Below are positions 39,914 to 49,665 of a stretch of DNA of 64,000 nt, piece by piece. The translations under genes and the position numbers were made by a program. The stretch covers positions 558,001 to 622,000 of the forward strand of contig NZ_JANHDH010000001.1 of the NCBI RefSeq assembly GCF_026616195.1, given 5' to 3'. This DNA comes from Haloarchaeobius amylolyticus (GTDB lineage: Archaea > Halobacteriota > Halobacteria > Halobacteriales > Natrialbaceae). Numbering within the stretch: the stretch's first letter is position 1; each line of letters opens with the position of its first letter. Below the pieces are notes generated by a model. The model was given only the letters and a program-made list of their open reading frames with translations, did no database searches and was not told where the DNA came from.

Positions 39914-40225
39914 ATGAGCATCTGGGTCGACCTGGCGAAGGCCGCGACGGTGGCCAACGTCGTGTTGCTGCTCTCCCTCGGGTACGTCTGGGGTCGGAAC
40001 TTCGTGAAGTTCCGCTCGAAGCACACGATGGGCCTGCTGGTCTTCTCCGCGCTGTTGCTCATGGAGAACCTGCTGATCCTCTACTACTACCTCATCGACC
40101 CGGACCTCTCGGCGTGGTGGCACAACGAGAGCCTGGTGCCGACCGTCGTCTGGCAGTGGCAGATGGCCATCCACGCGCTCCAGACCATCGGCCTCGGGTT
40201 CCTCGCCTGGGTCACCTGGGACTGA
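39914..40225 (+). CDS. Small three-helix membrane protein
   Basis: 103 residues. Hydrophobic segments at about residues 11-28 (TVANVVLLLSLGYVWG), 37-58 (LLVFSALLLMENLLILYYYL) and 80-101 (WQMAIHALQTIGLGFLAW) predict three membrane spans with an amphipathic linker. Similar small membrane proteins occur next to wHTH regulators in haloarchaea (the DUF7521-like group, by recollection). Function is unknown. Confidence 0.7.
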   Translation: MSIWVDLAKAATVANVVLLLSLGYVWGRNFVKFRSKHTMGLLVFSALLLMENLLILYYYLIDPDLSAWWHNESLVPTVVWQWQMAIHALQTIGLGFLAWVTWD

Positions 40226-40277
40226 CGCGGTCGACACGTCCTGCCGCCCCGGCCTGCACCGTTCTCCGCGACCCGCC

Positions 40278-40285
40278 TTTTTATA
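40278..40285 (+). promoter_or_regulatory. Strong TATA box with no matching gene start
   Basis: TTTTTATA is the best TATA match in this stretch. It would place a transcription start near 40310, 120 nt ahead of the next credible start codon (40432). It could drive a short RNA or a longer leader of the surface protein gene. Confidence 0.4.
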
Positions 40286-40403
40286 CACCTCCGCGTTTCC
40301 TCCCCGATTCTAGTCATAGTGTCGCCGAACCCAGAAACCGCAACACTGCGACGAGACTGTGGTCAGAATTGGGTGAGCGTTGGGTCGCAGTTCGGCAAAT
40401 CGG

Positions 40404-40410
40404 TTTTAAT
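40404..40410 (+). promoter_or_regulatory. TATA box of the DUF7282 repeat protein
   Basis: TTTTAAT lies 22-28 nt upstream of the ATG at 40432, consistent with a leaderless mRNA for the surface repeat protein. Confidence 0.5.
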
Positions 40411-40431
40411 ACCCTGTCCGACGTCCTGTGT

Positions 40432-42468
40432 ATGCGGCAACGCATCACCACGCTGGTGGTCGTCGCGATGCTCGTCAGCACGGGGCTGGCGGGCACGGCG
40501 GCCGCCGGTCAGGGCACGACCGCGGCAGACGCAGCGGTACAGTTCAGCGGACAGACCTCCGGCGGCTCGACCGTCGTGGTCGACGAGGTGACCCTCCCCG
40601 AGGGTGGCTTCGTCACCATCCACGACGCGACGCTGGGTGACGGGAAGACGCTCGAGAGCGTGCGGGGGACCTCCCAGTACCTCGAACCGGGCACGCACGA
40701 GGACGTCACCGTCCACCTCGACGACACGCTCTCGTCGGACGCCACGCTGTTCGCGATGGCGCACCAGGACACGAACGACGACCGGACCTACTCCTTCGTC
40801 GCGTCGAGTGGCTCGGTCGACGGGCCGTACACGGCCGGCGGTGACATCGTGATGCAGTCCGCCGACGTGGCGGTCTCCGCGACCGTCTCGATGGCCGACG
40901 GCCCGGTCGCGAACGACACCGTCGTCGTCGACCGCGTCGAGTTGAGCGAGGGCGGCTTCGTGACGGTCCACGACGCGACCGTGACCGAGGGCGCCGTCTT
41001 CGAGAGCATCCGCGGGACCTCCCAGTACCTGAGCGCAGGCGTGCACGAGAACGTGCGCATCACGCTGGAGCAGCCCCTGACGGAGAACACGACGCTGGTC
41101 CCGATGGCGCACAGGGACACCGACGGTGACCAGACGTACACCTTCGACACGTCCGAGGGTGAGGCCGACGGGCCCTACACCGCCGACGGGAGCGCGGTCG
41201 TCGACACGGCCGCGGTGACGCTCGCCGACGAGGCGACCGCGACGTTCGACGCGCAGGCCGCCGGCGGCCACCGCGTCGTCGTCGACTCGGTCTTCCTGCC
41301 CGAGGGCGGCTTCGTGACGATGCACGACGCGAGCCTGCAGGACGGCGCGGTCTTCGACAGCGTCCGTGGCACCTCGCAGTACCTCGCCCCGGGCTACCAC
41401 GAGGACGTCGCGGTCGTCCTCGACGAGCCGATGACCGAGGACGGCTCCCTCATCGCGATGCCGCACATGGACACCGACGGTGACCAGGCCTACGACTTCG
41501 TCGAGAGCGAAGGCGGCGACGACGGCCCCTACACCGCCGACGGTGGCGCCGTGGTCGACGCGGGCAACGTCACCATCTCCGCGAGCGTCTCGATGGCCGA
41601 CCAGCCCTCCGACGGGCACACGGTCGTCGTGCAGGACGTCGACCTCTCCGAGGGCGGTTTCGTGACGGTCCACGACAGCTCGCTGTTCGCGGGGGCGACC
41701 TTCGACAGCGTGGTCGGCACCTCCGCGTACCTCGAGGCCGGCCACCACGAGAACGTGACCGTCACGCTCGACAGCCCGATCCGGTCCACGCAGACGCTGG
41801 TCCCGATGGCGCACCAGGACACGAACGACGACCAGACGTACTCCTTCGTCGAGGACGAGGGCGGCGCTGATGGGCCCTACACCGCAGACGGCGGTGCCGT
41901 GGTCGACACGGCCCGCGCCTCGGTCCAGGCGACCGTGACGTTCCAGGCACAGGAGACGATGGGTGAGACGGTCGTGGTCGACTCGGTGACGCTCCACGAC
42001 GGCGGCTTCGTCACCATCCACGACGCGAGCCTGCAGGACGGCGCGGTCTTCGACAGCGTCCGCGGCACCTCCGCGTACCTCGCACCGGGCACGCACGAGA
42101 ACGTGACGGTCACGCTCGACCAGCCGGTCGAGGAGGACTCCACGCTCATCGCGATGCCCCACCGCGACACGAACGACGACCAGACGTACGCCTTCGTCGA
42201 GAGCGAGGGCGGTGCTGACGGCCCCTACGTCGCGAACGGTGCGGTCGTCTCCGGCGCGTCCGTGACCTACACGGGCGAGTCGATGACGGAGACGACGATG
42301 ACGACGACCATGGACGAGGGAACCACCATGGGCGAGGGGACCACGATGATGGACGACGGCACGGGTGACGACGCCGACAGCGGCGGCTCGCCCGGCTTCG
42401 GCATCGTCGCGGTCGCGCTCGCACTGGTTGGCACGCTGGCATTCGGTATCCGGCGCGCCGGTCGCTGA
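40432..42468 (+). CDS. Surface protein with five DUF7282-like repeats and PGF-CTERM sorting tail
   Basis: 678 residues. A Sec-type signal peptide (MRQRITTLVVVAMLVSTGLA) precedes five tandem repeats with a 116-118 residue period, each with EGGFVT(I/V/M)HDA, a (R)GTS.YL block, and an acidic HxDTN/DxD.TY segment. A Thr/Met-rich linker (ETTMTTTMDEGTT) precedes the C-terminal GGSPGFGIVAVALALVGTLAF and basic tail, a PGF-CTERM archaeosortase signal, so it is predicted to be processed and lipid-anchored at the cell surface. No enzyme motif is seen; adhesion or matrix function is a guess. Confidence 0.85.
   Translation: MRQRITTLVVVAMLVSTGLAGTAAAGQGTTAADAAVQFSGQTSGGSTVVVDEVTLPEGGFVTIHDATLGDGKTLESVRGTSQYLEPGTHEDVTVHLDDTLSSDATLFAMAHQDTNDDRTYSFVASSGSVDGPYTAGGDIVMQSADVAVSATVSMADGPVANDTVVVDRVELSEGGFVTVHDATVTEGAVFESIRGTSQYLSAGVHENVRITLEQPLTENTTLVPMAHRDTDGDQTYTFDTSEGEADGPYTADGSAVVDTAAVTLADEATATFDAQAAGGHRVVVDSVFLPEGGFVTMHDASLQDGAVFDSVRGTSQYLAPGYHEDVAVVLDEPMTEDGSLIAMPHMDTDGDQAYDFVESEGGDDGPYTADGGAVVDAGNVTISASVSMADQPSDGHTVVVQDVDLSEGGFVTVHDSSLFAGATFDSVVGTSAYLEAGHHENVTVTLDSPIRSTQTLVPMAHQDTNDDQTYSFVEDEGGADGPYTADGGAVVDTARASVQATVTFQAQETMGETVVVDSVTLHDGGFVTIHDASLQDGAVFDSVRGTSAYLAPGTHENVTVTLDQPVEEDSTLIAMPHRDTNDDQTYAFVESEGGADGPYVANGAVVSGASVTYTGESMTETTMTTTMDEGTTMGEGTTMMDDGTGDDADSGGSPGFGIVAVALALVGTLAFGIRRAGR
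40570..42233 (+). repeat. Five tandem 116-118-codon repeats in a surface protein gene
   Basis: Equivalent positions (the VVVD strand) begin at 40570, 40918, 41272, 41620 and 41968, giving periods of 348, 354, 348 and 348 nt. Units 3 and 5 share a near-identical DNA stretch encoding HDASLQDGAVFDSVRGTS, suggesting recent copying between units. Confidence 0.85.
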
Positions 42469-45333: not shown

Positions 45334-45440
45334 AGTCGTTTTTTCATTCCCGGGCAAGTAGTATCAAGGTTGGCCCTGACACGGTACCCCGCCCGCTGCG
45401 ACCCGAAAGCCAGAAACGTCCCCACGCCAACGCCCGGGTG

Positions 45441-46379
45441 ATGGAAACCGGGACGATACCGCTGTCGTCGCTCTCCGGCGGGTTCGACGCACACGTCACC
45501 CTCGAGAGCGGCCAGTCCTACCTCTGGCGACGCGAGGACGGCCGGATGTACGAGGGCGACGACGACGGCTCGCCGTGGTACTACACCGTCCTCGACCTCG
45601 ACGAGAAGGACCGCGACGCGACGCCCGTCCCAGACGACGCCGGCGACGACCCGACCGTCGTCCGGGTGCGGGTGACCGACGAGGCCGTCGAGTGGGAGTC
45701 CTCGGTCGACGCCCACGACCTCGTCACCCACCTCCTGCGGCTCGACGACGACCTCGACCGCATCATCGCCGACGCGCCGGACCGCGACCTCGTCCACGAG
45801 GCGTACGAGGCCCACCGGGGGCTGCGACTGGTGCGTGACCCGCCATTCGGTTGCCTGATATCGTTCATCTGCTCGGCGCAGATGCGCGTCGAGCGCATCC
45901 ACGAGATGGTCTCCTCGCTGGCGCGCGCCTACGGCGACGAGGTCGAGTTCGACGGGCGGACCTACCACGCCTTCCCGCGGCCCGAGCAACTCGCCGCCAC
46001 GACCGAGCAGGACCTGCGCGACCTCGGACTGGGCTACCGCGCGCCCTACGTCCAGCGCACCGCCGAGATGGTCGCGTCGGGCGAGGCCCACCCCGCGGAC
46101 TTCTTCGACATGGCCTACGAGGACGCCCGCGACGCGATGACGACGTTCGTCGGTGTCGGCGACAAGGTGGCCGACTGCATCCTCCTGTTCTCGCTGGGCT
46201 ACCTCGAGGCCATCCCGCTCGACACCTGGATGCAGACGGTCGTGGCCGACTACTACCCCGAGTGCGACCGCGGCAACTACGCCGAGACCTCGCGCGCGCT
46301 CCGGGAGACCTTCGGCGGGCAGTACGCCGGCTACGTCCAGACGTACGTCTTCCACCTGCTCCGGACTCGCGGGGAGTGA
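45441..46379 (+). CDS. ogg: 8-oxoguanine DNA glycosylase (OGG1-like)
   Basis: 312 residues from the ATG at 45441 (a GTG lies immediately before). The HhH-GPD signature is FVGVGDKVADCILLFSLGYL with the catalytic lysine in GDK, and the aspartate in AIPLDTWM. The N-terminal OGG domain begins SGGFDAHVTLESGQSYLW. Removes oxidised guanine and nicks the strand in base excision repair. The paired Cys or zinc cluster seen in some relatives is absent. Followed by an epimerase gene. Confidence 0.93.
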   Translation: METGTIPLSSLSGGFDAHVTLESGQSYLWRREDGRMYEGDDDGSPWYYTVLDLDEKDRDATPVPDDAGDDPTVVRVRVTDEAVEWESSVDAHDLVTHLLRLDDDLDRIIADAPDRDLVHEAYEAHRGLRLVRDPPFGCLISFICSAQMRVERIHEMVSSLARAYGDEVEFDGRTYHAFPRPEQLAATTEQDLRDLGLGYRAPYVQRTAEMVASGEAHPADFFDMAYEDARDAMTTFVGVGDKVADCILLFSLGYLEAIPLDTWMQTVVADYYPECDRGNYAETSRALRETFGGQYAGYVQTYVFHLLRTRGE

Positions 46380-46441
46380 GCCGGCGAGGATGAGCCGGTG
46401 GCGAGTGAAAGCTTGATGTAGCAGGCAACGGAGCACCGCGT

Positions 46442-47422
46442 ATGCACTACTTTTGCACCGGCGCGACGGGCTTCGTCGGCGGGAGACTCGCCCGCCGGCT
46501 CGTCGACGACGGCCACGAGGTGACGGCCCTCGTCCGCTCGCCCGGCGAGGCGGCCGACCTGGAGGAGTACGGGGTCGAACTCGTCGCCGGGGACGTCACC
46601 GAGCAGGCGAGCATGCGCGAGGCCATGGCCGGCACCGACGGCGTGTTCCACCTCGCCGCGCTGTACCGACTCGGCGTCGACGACCCGGGCCTGCTCGAGC
46701 AGGTCAACGTCGAGGGCACCCGCAAGGTCCTCGAACTCGTCGACAAACTCGACATCCCGAAGGCCGTCTACACCAGCACGCTGGCCGTCAACTCGGACAC
46801 GCACGGGGCGCGCGTCGACGAGGACTACCGCTTCGAGGGCGACCACCTCTCGGTGTACGACGAGACGAAGTGGCGCGCCCACCACGAGGTCGCCGCACCG
46901 ATGGCCGCGGGAGGGGTCCCCATCGTCACGGTCATGCCGGGCGTGGTCTACGGGCCGGGCGACACCAGCCAGCTGCGCGACCTCTGGGTCGACTGGCTGC
47001 AGGGCGACCTGCCCGTCATTCCCCGCGAGACCGCCTACTGCTGGGCACACGTCGACGACGTCGTGGACGCCCACGTCGCCGCCATGGAGCAGGGCGACCC
47101 GGGCGAGGACTACATCGTCGCGGGCGAACCGTACACGCTGGTCGAGGCGTTCGCCATCGCCAGCGACATCGTGGGCCGGGACCCGCCCCGGGCCGTCTCG
47201 CCGACGTGGTTCCGGGCGCTGTCGGTGCTCGCGGGCGCCGCGGAACACGTCGTCTCGCTGCCCGACGCGTACAGTTCGGAGGCCCTGCGCGTGCTCGCCG
47301 GGACGACCTACCTCGGGGACAACGCGAAGGCCAGGCGCGAACTCGGCATCGAGCACCGGCCCTTCGACGAGGGCCTGCGCGAGGTACTCGAACACGAGCA
47401 GGCCCTGCTCGGGCAGTCCTGA
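46442..47422 (+). CDS. NAD-dependent epimerase/dehydratase, intact paralogue
   Basis: 326 residues. Extended SDR fold: dinucleotide motif GATGFVGGRL (Gly7, Gly10, Gly13), VFHLAALYRLG, the catalytic pair in SVYDETKWR (Tyr139, Lys143), and VYTSTLAVNSDT supplying Ser/Thr. C-terminal part includes AFCWAHVDD-like YCWAHVDDVVDAHVAA and YSSEALRVLAG. Likely acts on a nucleotide sugar or related metabolite; the substrate is unknown. Its tandem neighbour at 47666 is a paralogue that lacks the catalytic lysine. Confidence 0.92.
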   Translation: MHYFCTGATGFVGGRLARRLVDDGHEVTALVRSPGEAADLEEYGVELVAGDVTEQASMREAMAGTDGVFHLAALYRLGVDDPGLLEQVNVEGTRKVLELVDKLDIPKAVYTSTLAVNSDTHGARVDEDYRFEGDHLSVYDETKWRAHHEVAAPMAAGGVPIVTVMPGVVYGPGDTSQLRDLWVDWLQGDLPVIPRETAYCWAHVDDVVDAHVAAMEQGDPGEDYIVAGEPYTLVEAFAIASDIVGRDPPRAVSPTWFRALSVLAGAAEHVVSLPDAYSSEALRVLAGTTYLGDNAKARRELGIEHRPFDEGLREVLEHEQALLGQS

Positions 47423-47665
47423 GTCGCGCGCCAGAAACAGTTCGGCGCGTGCAACAGTGATTCGACCCGTCACCGCGAGACCACCCTGAGCGACCGGTAA
47501 CGACGCGTTATGCGGGCTTAGGGGCGGTGAAATGCCACCGCCGGCGGCGTGTGTCACCGGCGCCGCGTCGGCGGTCGGGACGGGTGCGTCGCCGCCACCG
47601 TTCCAGCGCGGGAGCGACCGGGAGGACCAGCGGGGTTGATGGCCGACCTTGCTCTGCAATGGTGT

Positions 47666-48679
47666 ATGCGGTACCTCGTCACGGGTGAAACCGGGTTCGT
47701 CACGCACCGACTGGTCGACAGACTCCTCGTCGGGGGGCACGAGGTGACAGTGCTGGTGCAGAACCCCGAGGAGGCCATCGACCTGGCGGAGTCCGGCTGC
47801 ATGGTCTGTGGCGGGCACGTCGCTGCCAAGGAGCGCATCCGCCACGCCTTCGAGGACGTGGACAGGGTGTTCCACCTCGGCGGGCGGTCCCTCGCCGACC
47901 ACCGTGACCCGGCAGCCATCGCACGCGTCAACGTCAGGGGAACCCGGAACGTCCTCGAACTCGCCCGCGAGCACGACGTGGAGAAGGTGGTCTACCGGGG
48001 GAGCCTCGCCGCGAACTCGGACACCGGCGGCATGCTCGTCGGCGAGGACTACCGGTTCGAGGGACCACATCGCTCCGTCTACGACGAGACGATGTGGCGG
48101 GCACGCCACGAGGTCGCGGAACCCATGGCCGCCGAGGGGGTGCCGGTCGTGACGGTCCTGCCCGGCGCCATCTACGGCCCCGATGGCAGGCTCTCGCTGC
48201 GCGACCGGACGGTCGACTGGCTCGACGGGACCCTGCCGGTGGTCCCCCGCAAGACGGCCTTCTGCTGGGCGCACGTCGACGACGCCGTCGAGGGCTACGT
48301 CGCCGCCATGGACCGCGGCGTGCCGGGCGAGACGTACATCACCGCGGGCGAGCCCCACACCCTCGCCGAGGCCGTCCAGCGCGCCAGCGAGGTCCTCGGT
48401 CGTGACCCGCCGCGGACCGTGCCGGCGGCGTGGTTCATGGGGGTGTCGCGACTGGCCGAACTCGCGGAGCGAGTCGTCTCGCTGCCCGACGAGTACAGTT
48501 CGGAGGCCCTGCGCGTGCTCGCCGGGGCGACCTACCTCGGGGACAACGCGAAGGCCAGGCGCGAACTCGGCATCGAGCACCGCCCCCTCGCGGAGGGCCT
48601 GCAGCAGGTGCTGGCGCCCGAGCAGTTGACGCCCGGCCCGGCCTCAGACGGGCCCAGGTCGGCCACGTACCAGGGCTGA
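47666..48679 (+). CDS. NAD-dependent epimerase paralogue with degraded catalytic motifs
   Basis: 337 residues from the ATG at 47666. Colinear with the preceding epimerase, but the third glycine of the nucleotide-binding motif is replaced (GETGFVTHRL, Gly13 to Thr) and the catalytic Lys143 is methionine in SVYDETMWR (AAG to ATG). Other family parts remain (FHLGGRSLADH, YCWAHVDD-like FCWAHVDDAVEG). It may be a non-catalytic partner or a decaying duplicate; a different substrate cannot be excluded. The 3' 110 bp of the C-terminal region is almost identical to the first copy. Confidence 0.88.
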   Translation: MRYLVTGETGFVTHRLVDRLLVGGHEVTVLVQNPEEAIDLAESGCMVCGGHVAAKERIRHAFEDVDRVFHLGGRSLADHRDPAAIARVNVRGTRNVLELAREHDVEKVVYRGSLAANSDTGGMLVGEDYRFEGPHRSVYDETMWRARHEVAEPMAAEGVPVVTVLPGAIYGPDGRLSLRDRTVDWLDGTLPVVPRKTAFCWAHVDDAVEGYVAAMDRGVPGETYITAGEPHTLAEAVQRASEVLGRDPPRTVPAAWFMGVSRLAELAERVVSLPDEYSSEALRVLAGATYLGDNAKARRELGIEHRPLAEGLQQVLAPEQLTPGPASDGPRSATYQG

Positions 48680-48804
48680 CCACGCTGGCGGGAGCGGCTG
48701 GAGAGACCTCTCGCGGTCGCCCGCCGTCTGCCGCACCCGCCGAAGCACTGGCCGAATTCGCACCCACCGCAACCCCCAAGTTCACGTCCGTAGTCCGGAC
48801 TGAC

Positions 48805-49665
48805 ATGGACGGTCACGGTCGCGCCACCGCCCCGGCCGCGGGCACGGTGCTCAACGCGCTCGCCAACGGACGAGGCTGTGCCTTCGCGATAGACCTCGAG
48901 ACGACCGCAGAGGTCACCCTCGACGACTCGGGGGCGTTCCGCGGCGAGGTCGCGGAGGCTGCCGACGCCGACACCGGCCTCGTCGAGCGCTGCGCGGAGC
49001 TCGCGGTGGCCCGGTGGGGCGACGACGCTGCGACGACCGGCGCACACGTGCGGACCGAGAGCGAGGTGCCGATGGCCGCCGGGCTCAAATCCTCGAGCGC
49101 CGCGGCCAACGCCACCGTACTGGCCACCTGCGACGCGCTCGGGGTCGACCCGGACCCACTCGACGCCTGCCGGCTGGGCGTGCAGGCCGCCCGCGACGCC
49201 GGCGTCACGGTCACCGGCGCGTTCGACGACGCCAGCGCCAGCATGCTCGGCGGCATCACCGTCACCGACAACACGCAGGACGAACTGCTCGCCCGCGAGG
49301 CGGTCGACTGGGACGTGCTGGTCTGGTGGCCCGACCAGCAGGCATTCAGCGCCGACGCCGATACGGAGCGGTGCAGACGGGTCGCGCCGATGGCCGACCT
49401 CGTCGCGGAACTCGCCCTCGACGGGCGCTACGGCGAGGCCATGACGGTCAACGGTTTCGCCTTCTGTGGCGCGCTCGGCTTCCCGACCGACCCGATGCTC
49501 GAAGCCCTGCCCGACGTGGACGGCGTCTCCCTGTCGGGCACCGGCCCCAGCTACGTCGCGGTGGGCGACCGCGACACGCTCGAATCGCTCGCAGACACCT
49601 GGAACCAACGAGACGGACACACATGGCTTACGACGACACGACAGACCGGCTGCCGGACGACATGA
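48805..49665 (+). CDS. aroK: Shikimate kinase, archaeal GHMP type
   Basis: 286 residues from the ATG at 48805. GHMP kinase fold: motif II VPMAAGLKSSSAAANATVLA near residue 92 and motif III GVSLSGTGPSYVAVG near residue 247. Archaeal shikimate kinases are unrelated to the bacterial AroK P-loop enzyme and belong to this family. Phosphorylates shikimate in the aromatic amino acid pathway. The last 43 nt overlap the chorismate mutase start, linking two steps of the same pathway. Confidence 0.93.
   Translation: MDGHGRATAPAAGTVLNALANGRGCAFAIDLETTAEVTLDDSGAFRGEVAEAADADTGLVERCAELAVARWGDDAATTGAHVRTESEVPMAAGLKSSSAAANATVLATCDALGVDPDPLDACRLGVQAARDAGVTVTGAFDDASASMLGGITVTDNTQDELLAREAVDWDVLVWWPDQQAFSADADTERCRRVAPMADLVAELALDGRYGEAMTVNGFAFCGALGFPTDPMLEALPDVDGVSLSGTGPSYVAVGDRDTLESLADTWNQRDGHTWLTTTRQTGCRTT

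Follow-up and report, generated by a model that had tools for sequence, protein, structure and literature searches.

Two tandem SDR genes and their setting

The window, by which we mean the whole stretch of 64,000 nucleotides analysed, is chromosomal DNA, classed as haloarchaeal by its closest relatives, with a G+C content of 69 %, and corresponds to positions 558001-622000 of contig 1 of the source assembly (4.6 Mb, 6 contigs). We found two related genes lying in tandem on the plus strand, here called copy 1 and copy 2, at a locus with the following features:

45438-46379, plus strand: OGG-type 8-oxoguanine DNA glycosylase, the upstream neighbour, also found upstream of the single gene of the relative G005
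46442-47422, plus strand: copy 1, an intact extended-SDR 'epimerase' (HpnA/Gox2253-like) with an ATG start, 326 aa
47249-47358, plus strand: homogenised tract in copy 1 (gene nt 808-917)
47423-47665, plus strand: spacer between the copies, 243 bases
47666-48679, plus strand: copy 2, a diverged paralog with G13T, R32Q, D51H, A72G, S112G and K143M
48473-48582, plus strand: homogenised tract in copy 2, with 108 of 110 bases the same as in copy 1
48676-49665, plus strand: archaeal shikimate kinase (TIGR01920), the downstream neighbour

The TIGR01920 match starts near 48829, so the true start of the shikimate kinase lies within the frame 48676-49665. The frame of copy 2 is open over 47549-48679 (plus strand), and its ATG at 47666 is homologous to the start of copy 1 and gives 337 aa up to the stop; other in-frame starts are present at 47636 (ATG) and 47549 (GTG). 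The two proteins align without a gap over 324 residues, 196 of them identical (60 %). An antisense open frame of 749 residues (46331-48580, minus strand) spans both copies, and such long antisense frames are common here.

Pfam Epimerase (PF01370) matches copy 1 with an E-value of 3.9e-34 (118.6 bits, above the cut-off of 20.9) and copy 2 with an E-value of 2.1e-22 (80.2 bits), which rules out copy 2 being a chance frame. The closest named profile is HpnA (TIGR03466), with 203.4 bits for copy 1 and 140.9 bits for copy 2; both are below the NCBI cut-off of 367.65 bits and thus neither is HpnA proper. The solved sequence nearest to copy 1 is PDB 3wj7 (E 3.6e-41), titled gox2253 in the library. 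Copy 1 has both the TGxxGxxG and the YxxxK motifs of an extended SDR and resembles the NAD-dependent epimerase-dehydratase family in its Rossmann glycines, its YxxxK and its fold, whereas copy 2 departs from the extended SDR, HpnA-like and Gox2253 family in being without catalytic and cofactor residues.

The duplication covers the gene from its start codon to roughly its stop and does not include the upstream region; the spacer is not copied from the region upstream of copy 1. Scanning the spacer with a model that is not of the archaeal kind found no sigma-70-like promoter or terminator. A+T-rich stretches are few in the spacer, and the gap before copy 1 has one that is conserved in G005. Towards the C-terminus the copies share the tract of 110 bases listed above, whose segment score was reached in 0 of 10000 permutations. 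Judged from the alignment, this tract is a product of gene conversion between the copies in the source lineage, which may have run in either direction.

Lost residues and rates of change in copy 2

Residue conservation was assessed on a protein alignment and tree of 48 rows, brought to 53 by five rows added later; L029, L034 and two L079 pieces, all under 300 aa, were left out before the 48-row tree. The 52 rows compared with copy 2 contain one duplicate, as L093 is identical to L015. In both alignments copy 2 is the sole row departing at G13, R32, D51, A72 and S112. Position 143 is K in 51 of the 52 other rows, R in one (L030) and Met in copy 2. In SDRs, G13, R32, D51 and A72 line the cofactor and S112 and K143 are part of the active site. 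The T113S change keeps a hydroxyl beside the lost S112.

The initial annotation had described intact glycine and YxxxK motifs in copy 1 and, in a copy 2 kept open, the changes Gly13 to Thr and Lys143 to Met. The alignment confirms GATGFVG and YDETKW in copy 1 and GETGFVT and YDETMW in copy 2, the latter through a single base (AAG to ATG), and the frame of copy 2 has neither stop nor indel. The loss of residues goes further than had been noted, with R32Q, D51H, A72G and S112G in addition.

These losses exceed those of any other family member compared. In a leave-one-out count on 45 rows, for which L062, L035 and L070 were also dropped, copy 2 breaks 5 of the 26 columns in which the 44 other rows do not vary, compared with 3 of 24 for the next worst row and a median of 0. 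Among 76 low-entropy sites, cofactor and catalytic positions (a list chosen on general SDR background) are changed in 7 of 14 cases versus 13 of 62 for the others (Fisher P 0.033). The combination expected of an active SDR (TGxxGxxG, YxxxK and a conserved S/T) is not found in copy 2, and its catalytic motif is lost as in a pseudoenzyme. Going by its sequence, copy 2 is very probably catalytically inactive.

Copy 2 has also changed much faster than its relatives. Its protein branch is 0.85 long against 0.10 and 0.11, and 1.14 against 0.056 and 0.044 when the tract is removed, so that copy 2 has outpaced copy 1 some 8- to 20-fold. A codon model in which saturation is modelled, and which takes no account of rate differences among sites, gives an omega of 0.18 for copy 2 versus 0.05 for the background. 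The model with one omega is worse by a 2 x dlnL of 5.7, and an omega of 1 for copy 2 is rejected with a 2 x dlnL of 11.0 (F3x4) or 7.3 (F61); with residues 1-125 alone, the branch of copy 2 becomes saturated.

Several other measures point to constraint. The changes in copy 2 avoid the sites conserved in the family (P 6e-6), and this holds for the two halves taken separately (P 0.0016 and 2.7e-5). No stop is present where 3 to 5 would be expected, and only 0.5 to 4.4 % of neutral draws are free of stops. Over 201 private substitutions copy 2 has no indel against 25.6 expected, a figure derived from strictly defined intergenic DNA of the source genome and G005 (2936 aligned bases), where 60 gaps accompany 471 substitutions; a looser definition of intergenic DNA gives 0.075 gaps per substitution and about 15 expected indels. 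The third-position G+C of copy 2 is 0.923, a value reached by 0 to 1.4 % of neutral draws.

Other measures resemble neutral change. Copy 2 has 130 protein changes versus 129.9 in the neutral draw, and its net acidity has dropped from 30 to 14, within the neutral range of -6 to 19 and lower than in 26 of the 27 haloarchaeal homologs compared. The private changes fall 58/80/63 on the three codon positions in raw counts, uncorrected for saturation. Taking these counts as proof of neutrality was considered and rejected, since third positions are close to saturation: at fourfold sites the trio formed by the two copies and the G005 gene differ from each other by 0.41, 0.36 and 0.47, and from the outgroups L058 and L056 by 0.46 to 0.59. 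The excess of protein change must postdate the loss of enzyme constraint, and the constraint that kept the frame therefore also largely postdates that loss. We infer that most of the constraint on copy 2 acted after catalysis was lost, since an enzyme gene under constraint until a recent death would not show an 8- to 20-fold excess of protein change.

Distribution and age of the pair

To place the pair among relatives, we looked for both copies in six genomes of the genus. They occur together in the source genome only. The nearest relative, G005, has a single gene whose identity is 85 % with copy 1 and 56 % with copy 2 and which sits, as in the source genome, between the OGG and shikimate kinase genes. 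In the four other genomes both copies are absent and the OGG and shikimate kinase genes are ~30 kb apart. The single gene of G005 indicates that the copy 1 ortholog there does not depend on copy 2.

In wider searches, in which part of the candidates of each genome was scored, homologs were found in at least 13 of 125 genomes of the family (E 1e-50 or better), at least 23 of 392 genomes of the order (1e-40; the 392 drawn from a larger group) and at least 7 of 146 genomes of a second family. No ortholog of copy 2 was seen among the scored candidates of these three sets, nor in the family of G148 (3 genomes), and a plasmid collection gave 19 records, all under 60 % identity. The same losses shared across species, which would support a pseudoenzyme, were not observed, copy 2 being present in one of the six genus genomes.

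The initial annotation had proposed that copy 2 may be a pseudo-enzyme partner, to be given up if the two genes did not occur together in relatives. In the genomes searched they do not: G005 has copy 1 alone and four genomes of the genus have neither. With the pair known from one species, co-occurrence cannot be used as support. The inactivity of copy 2 is supported by the lost motifs; a maintained partnership is not supported, the pair occurring in one genome of six.

G086 and G091 have two matches each, on different contigs. The second homolog of G086 (L079, about 1073-2100) lies in two pieces in different reading frames, with additional bases in between, and is a decaying duplicate in another genus. 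The homolog L070 of G223 has one in-frame TGA within the matched stretch, reflecting either a pseudogene or an assembly error.

The 48-row protein tree unites the two copies with the G005 gene in a single group (support 100/99). Over codons 1-275, at sites where copy 1 and the G005 gene differ, copy 2 shares the state of the one at 46 sites and of the other at 46. The codon model favours ((copy 1, G005), copy 2) by about 13 lnL; in the protein tree, copy 1 and G005 stand together against copy 2 in 23 % of bootstraps, leaving the branching undecided. A duplication after the split from G005 was considered and rejected: copy 1 shows no excess of states in common with copy 2 outside the tract and the arrangement is ~13 lnL worse, while the protein tree leaves it open. 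These comparisons suggest that the duplication took place around the time when the G005 lineage split off, or before it; in that lineage copy 2 was either lost or never arrived.

Possible roles and histories of copy 2

We favour, with a probability of about one half, the view that copy 2 is a lineage-restricted pseudoenzyme paralog persisting under relaxed, residual purifying selection. An extended SDR gene would have been duplicated in tandem in one haloarchaeal lineage and copy 2 would then have lost NAD(P) binding and the catalytic lysine, persisting as a non-catalytic protein under purifying selection that is relaxed but not absent. It would still fold and perform some non-catalytic function. 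Against this reading stand the neutral-looking measures given above, the failure to find an ortholog of copy 2 in the genomes searched and the failure to recognise a promoter for it.

Structure predictions are consistent with a kept fold. AlphaFold models have a mean pLDDT of 93.5 for copy 1 and 85.7 for copy 2, and the copy 2 model finds 3wj7 first in a fold search (E 1.6e-24); both models were built with a homolog alignment, so that the kept fold is partly built in. The copy 2 model has a low-confidence tail, and in the loop around 171-190 its pLDDT blocks fall to 54 and 64 versus 88 and 94 in copy 1.

In extended SDRs the helix bearing YxxxK makes up half of the dimer bundle. This helix (138-156) is the most protected element of copy 2, with 2 of 19 sites changed where 6.1 would be expected (P 0.018 without correction for the 16 elements). 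Helix 82-102, presumably the other half of the bundle, is not specially kept (7 of 21 changed versus 7.3 expected). The simplest candidate role would be that copy 2 joins copy 1 through the dimer interface of the YxxxK helix, altering the stability or activity of copy 1. Such a heterodimer is possible but has little support, the conservation of helix 138-156 being a weak hint. It is unlikely that copy 2 is in the full sense a prokaryotic SDR 'prozyme' that tunes copy 1 through this helix and has been caught early, during C-terminal gene conversion. Prozymes have been long retained in their clade.

Dead paralogs of active enzymes are a known kind, and copy 2 is a further case. In trypanosomes, catalytically dead paralogs known as prozymes form heteromers with AdoMetDC or deoxyhypusine synthase and thereby activate them (PMC5201418, PMC3663545); as here, a catalytically dead paralog exists beside an active relative. 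They differ from the present pair in that partner activation in the heteromer is reported for them whereas copy 1 and copy 2 are known as genes alone, and in that the copy 1 ortholog stands alone in the nearest relative. In a simulation study, the two products of a duplicated gene for a dimeric enzyme could come to form heteromers without any benefit; the model treats dimers of equal specific activity and not dead copies (PMC11066126). Our literature search found no report on such an SDR pseudoenzyme, or on haloarchaeal tandem gene conversion, touching the present case.

The main rival to the pseudoenzyme reading is that copy 2 is a redundant duplicate in slow decay, on which selection has ended, that has no non-catalytic role and that lacks stops and frameshifts by chance. 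The even distribution over codon positions, the falling acidity, the many invariant sites lost and the failure to find copy 2 in any relative searched all agree with decay, which is seen elsewhere in the family in the split L079 and the TGA of L070. Decay is difficult to reconcile with 0 stops and 0 indels over 201 substitutions where 3 to 5 and about 26 were expected, with the rejection of an omega of 1, with the avoidance of conserved sites or with the third-position G+C being kept, and we consider it a serious but less probable explanation. The earlier suggestion that copy 2 may not simply be decaying is supported insofar as copy 2 does not behave as free DNA. A mixed history is possible, in which a long constrained phase was followed by a recent end of selection, and this would weaken every one of the objections to decay.

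Alternatively, copy 2 may have been neofunctionalised and work by itself, for example in ligand binding without NAD(P), with no contact to copy 1. The cofactor half has given way more (47 % identity to copy 1 over residues 1-125, 65 % over the rest up to 268) in a fold predicted as kept, which speaks for such a role. The contrast may partly reflect gene conversion instead of constraint, and the loop at 171-190 is of low confidence in the copy 2 model; we regard this role as improbable. It is also conceivable that copy 2 did not arise by local duplication but is a diverged ortholog that came from an unsampled haloarchaeon and was inserted next to copy 1, as its equal nearness to copy 1 and the G005 gene outside the tract and the early split preferred by the codon model would suggest. 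The strongly supported grouping of the trio, the failure to find a donor-like sequence in the genomes searched and the loss of six near-invariant residues, unlike an ordinary ortholog, make an import very improbable.

Should copy 2 be retained for a non-catalytic role, it would be a very young pseudoenzyme, with its active parent, a single-gene relative and a homogenised tract readable side by side, and the beginnings of the path from duplicate to dead partner could be tested in archaea of a kind for which laboratory models exist. A decaying copy 2 would be an ordinary duplicate and a warning that an open frame at 69 % G+C is weak evidence alone. The interest of the case is modest unless expression and binding of copy 2 are shown.

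Elsewhere in the window, a 784-residue open frame (40114-42468, plus strand) contains five stretches of DUF7282 (PF23951). The underlying DNA is a tandem repeat with a 348-base unit present 3.7 times (40947-42228), and these repeats produce many cross-matches in the alignment of the window with G005.
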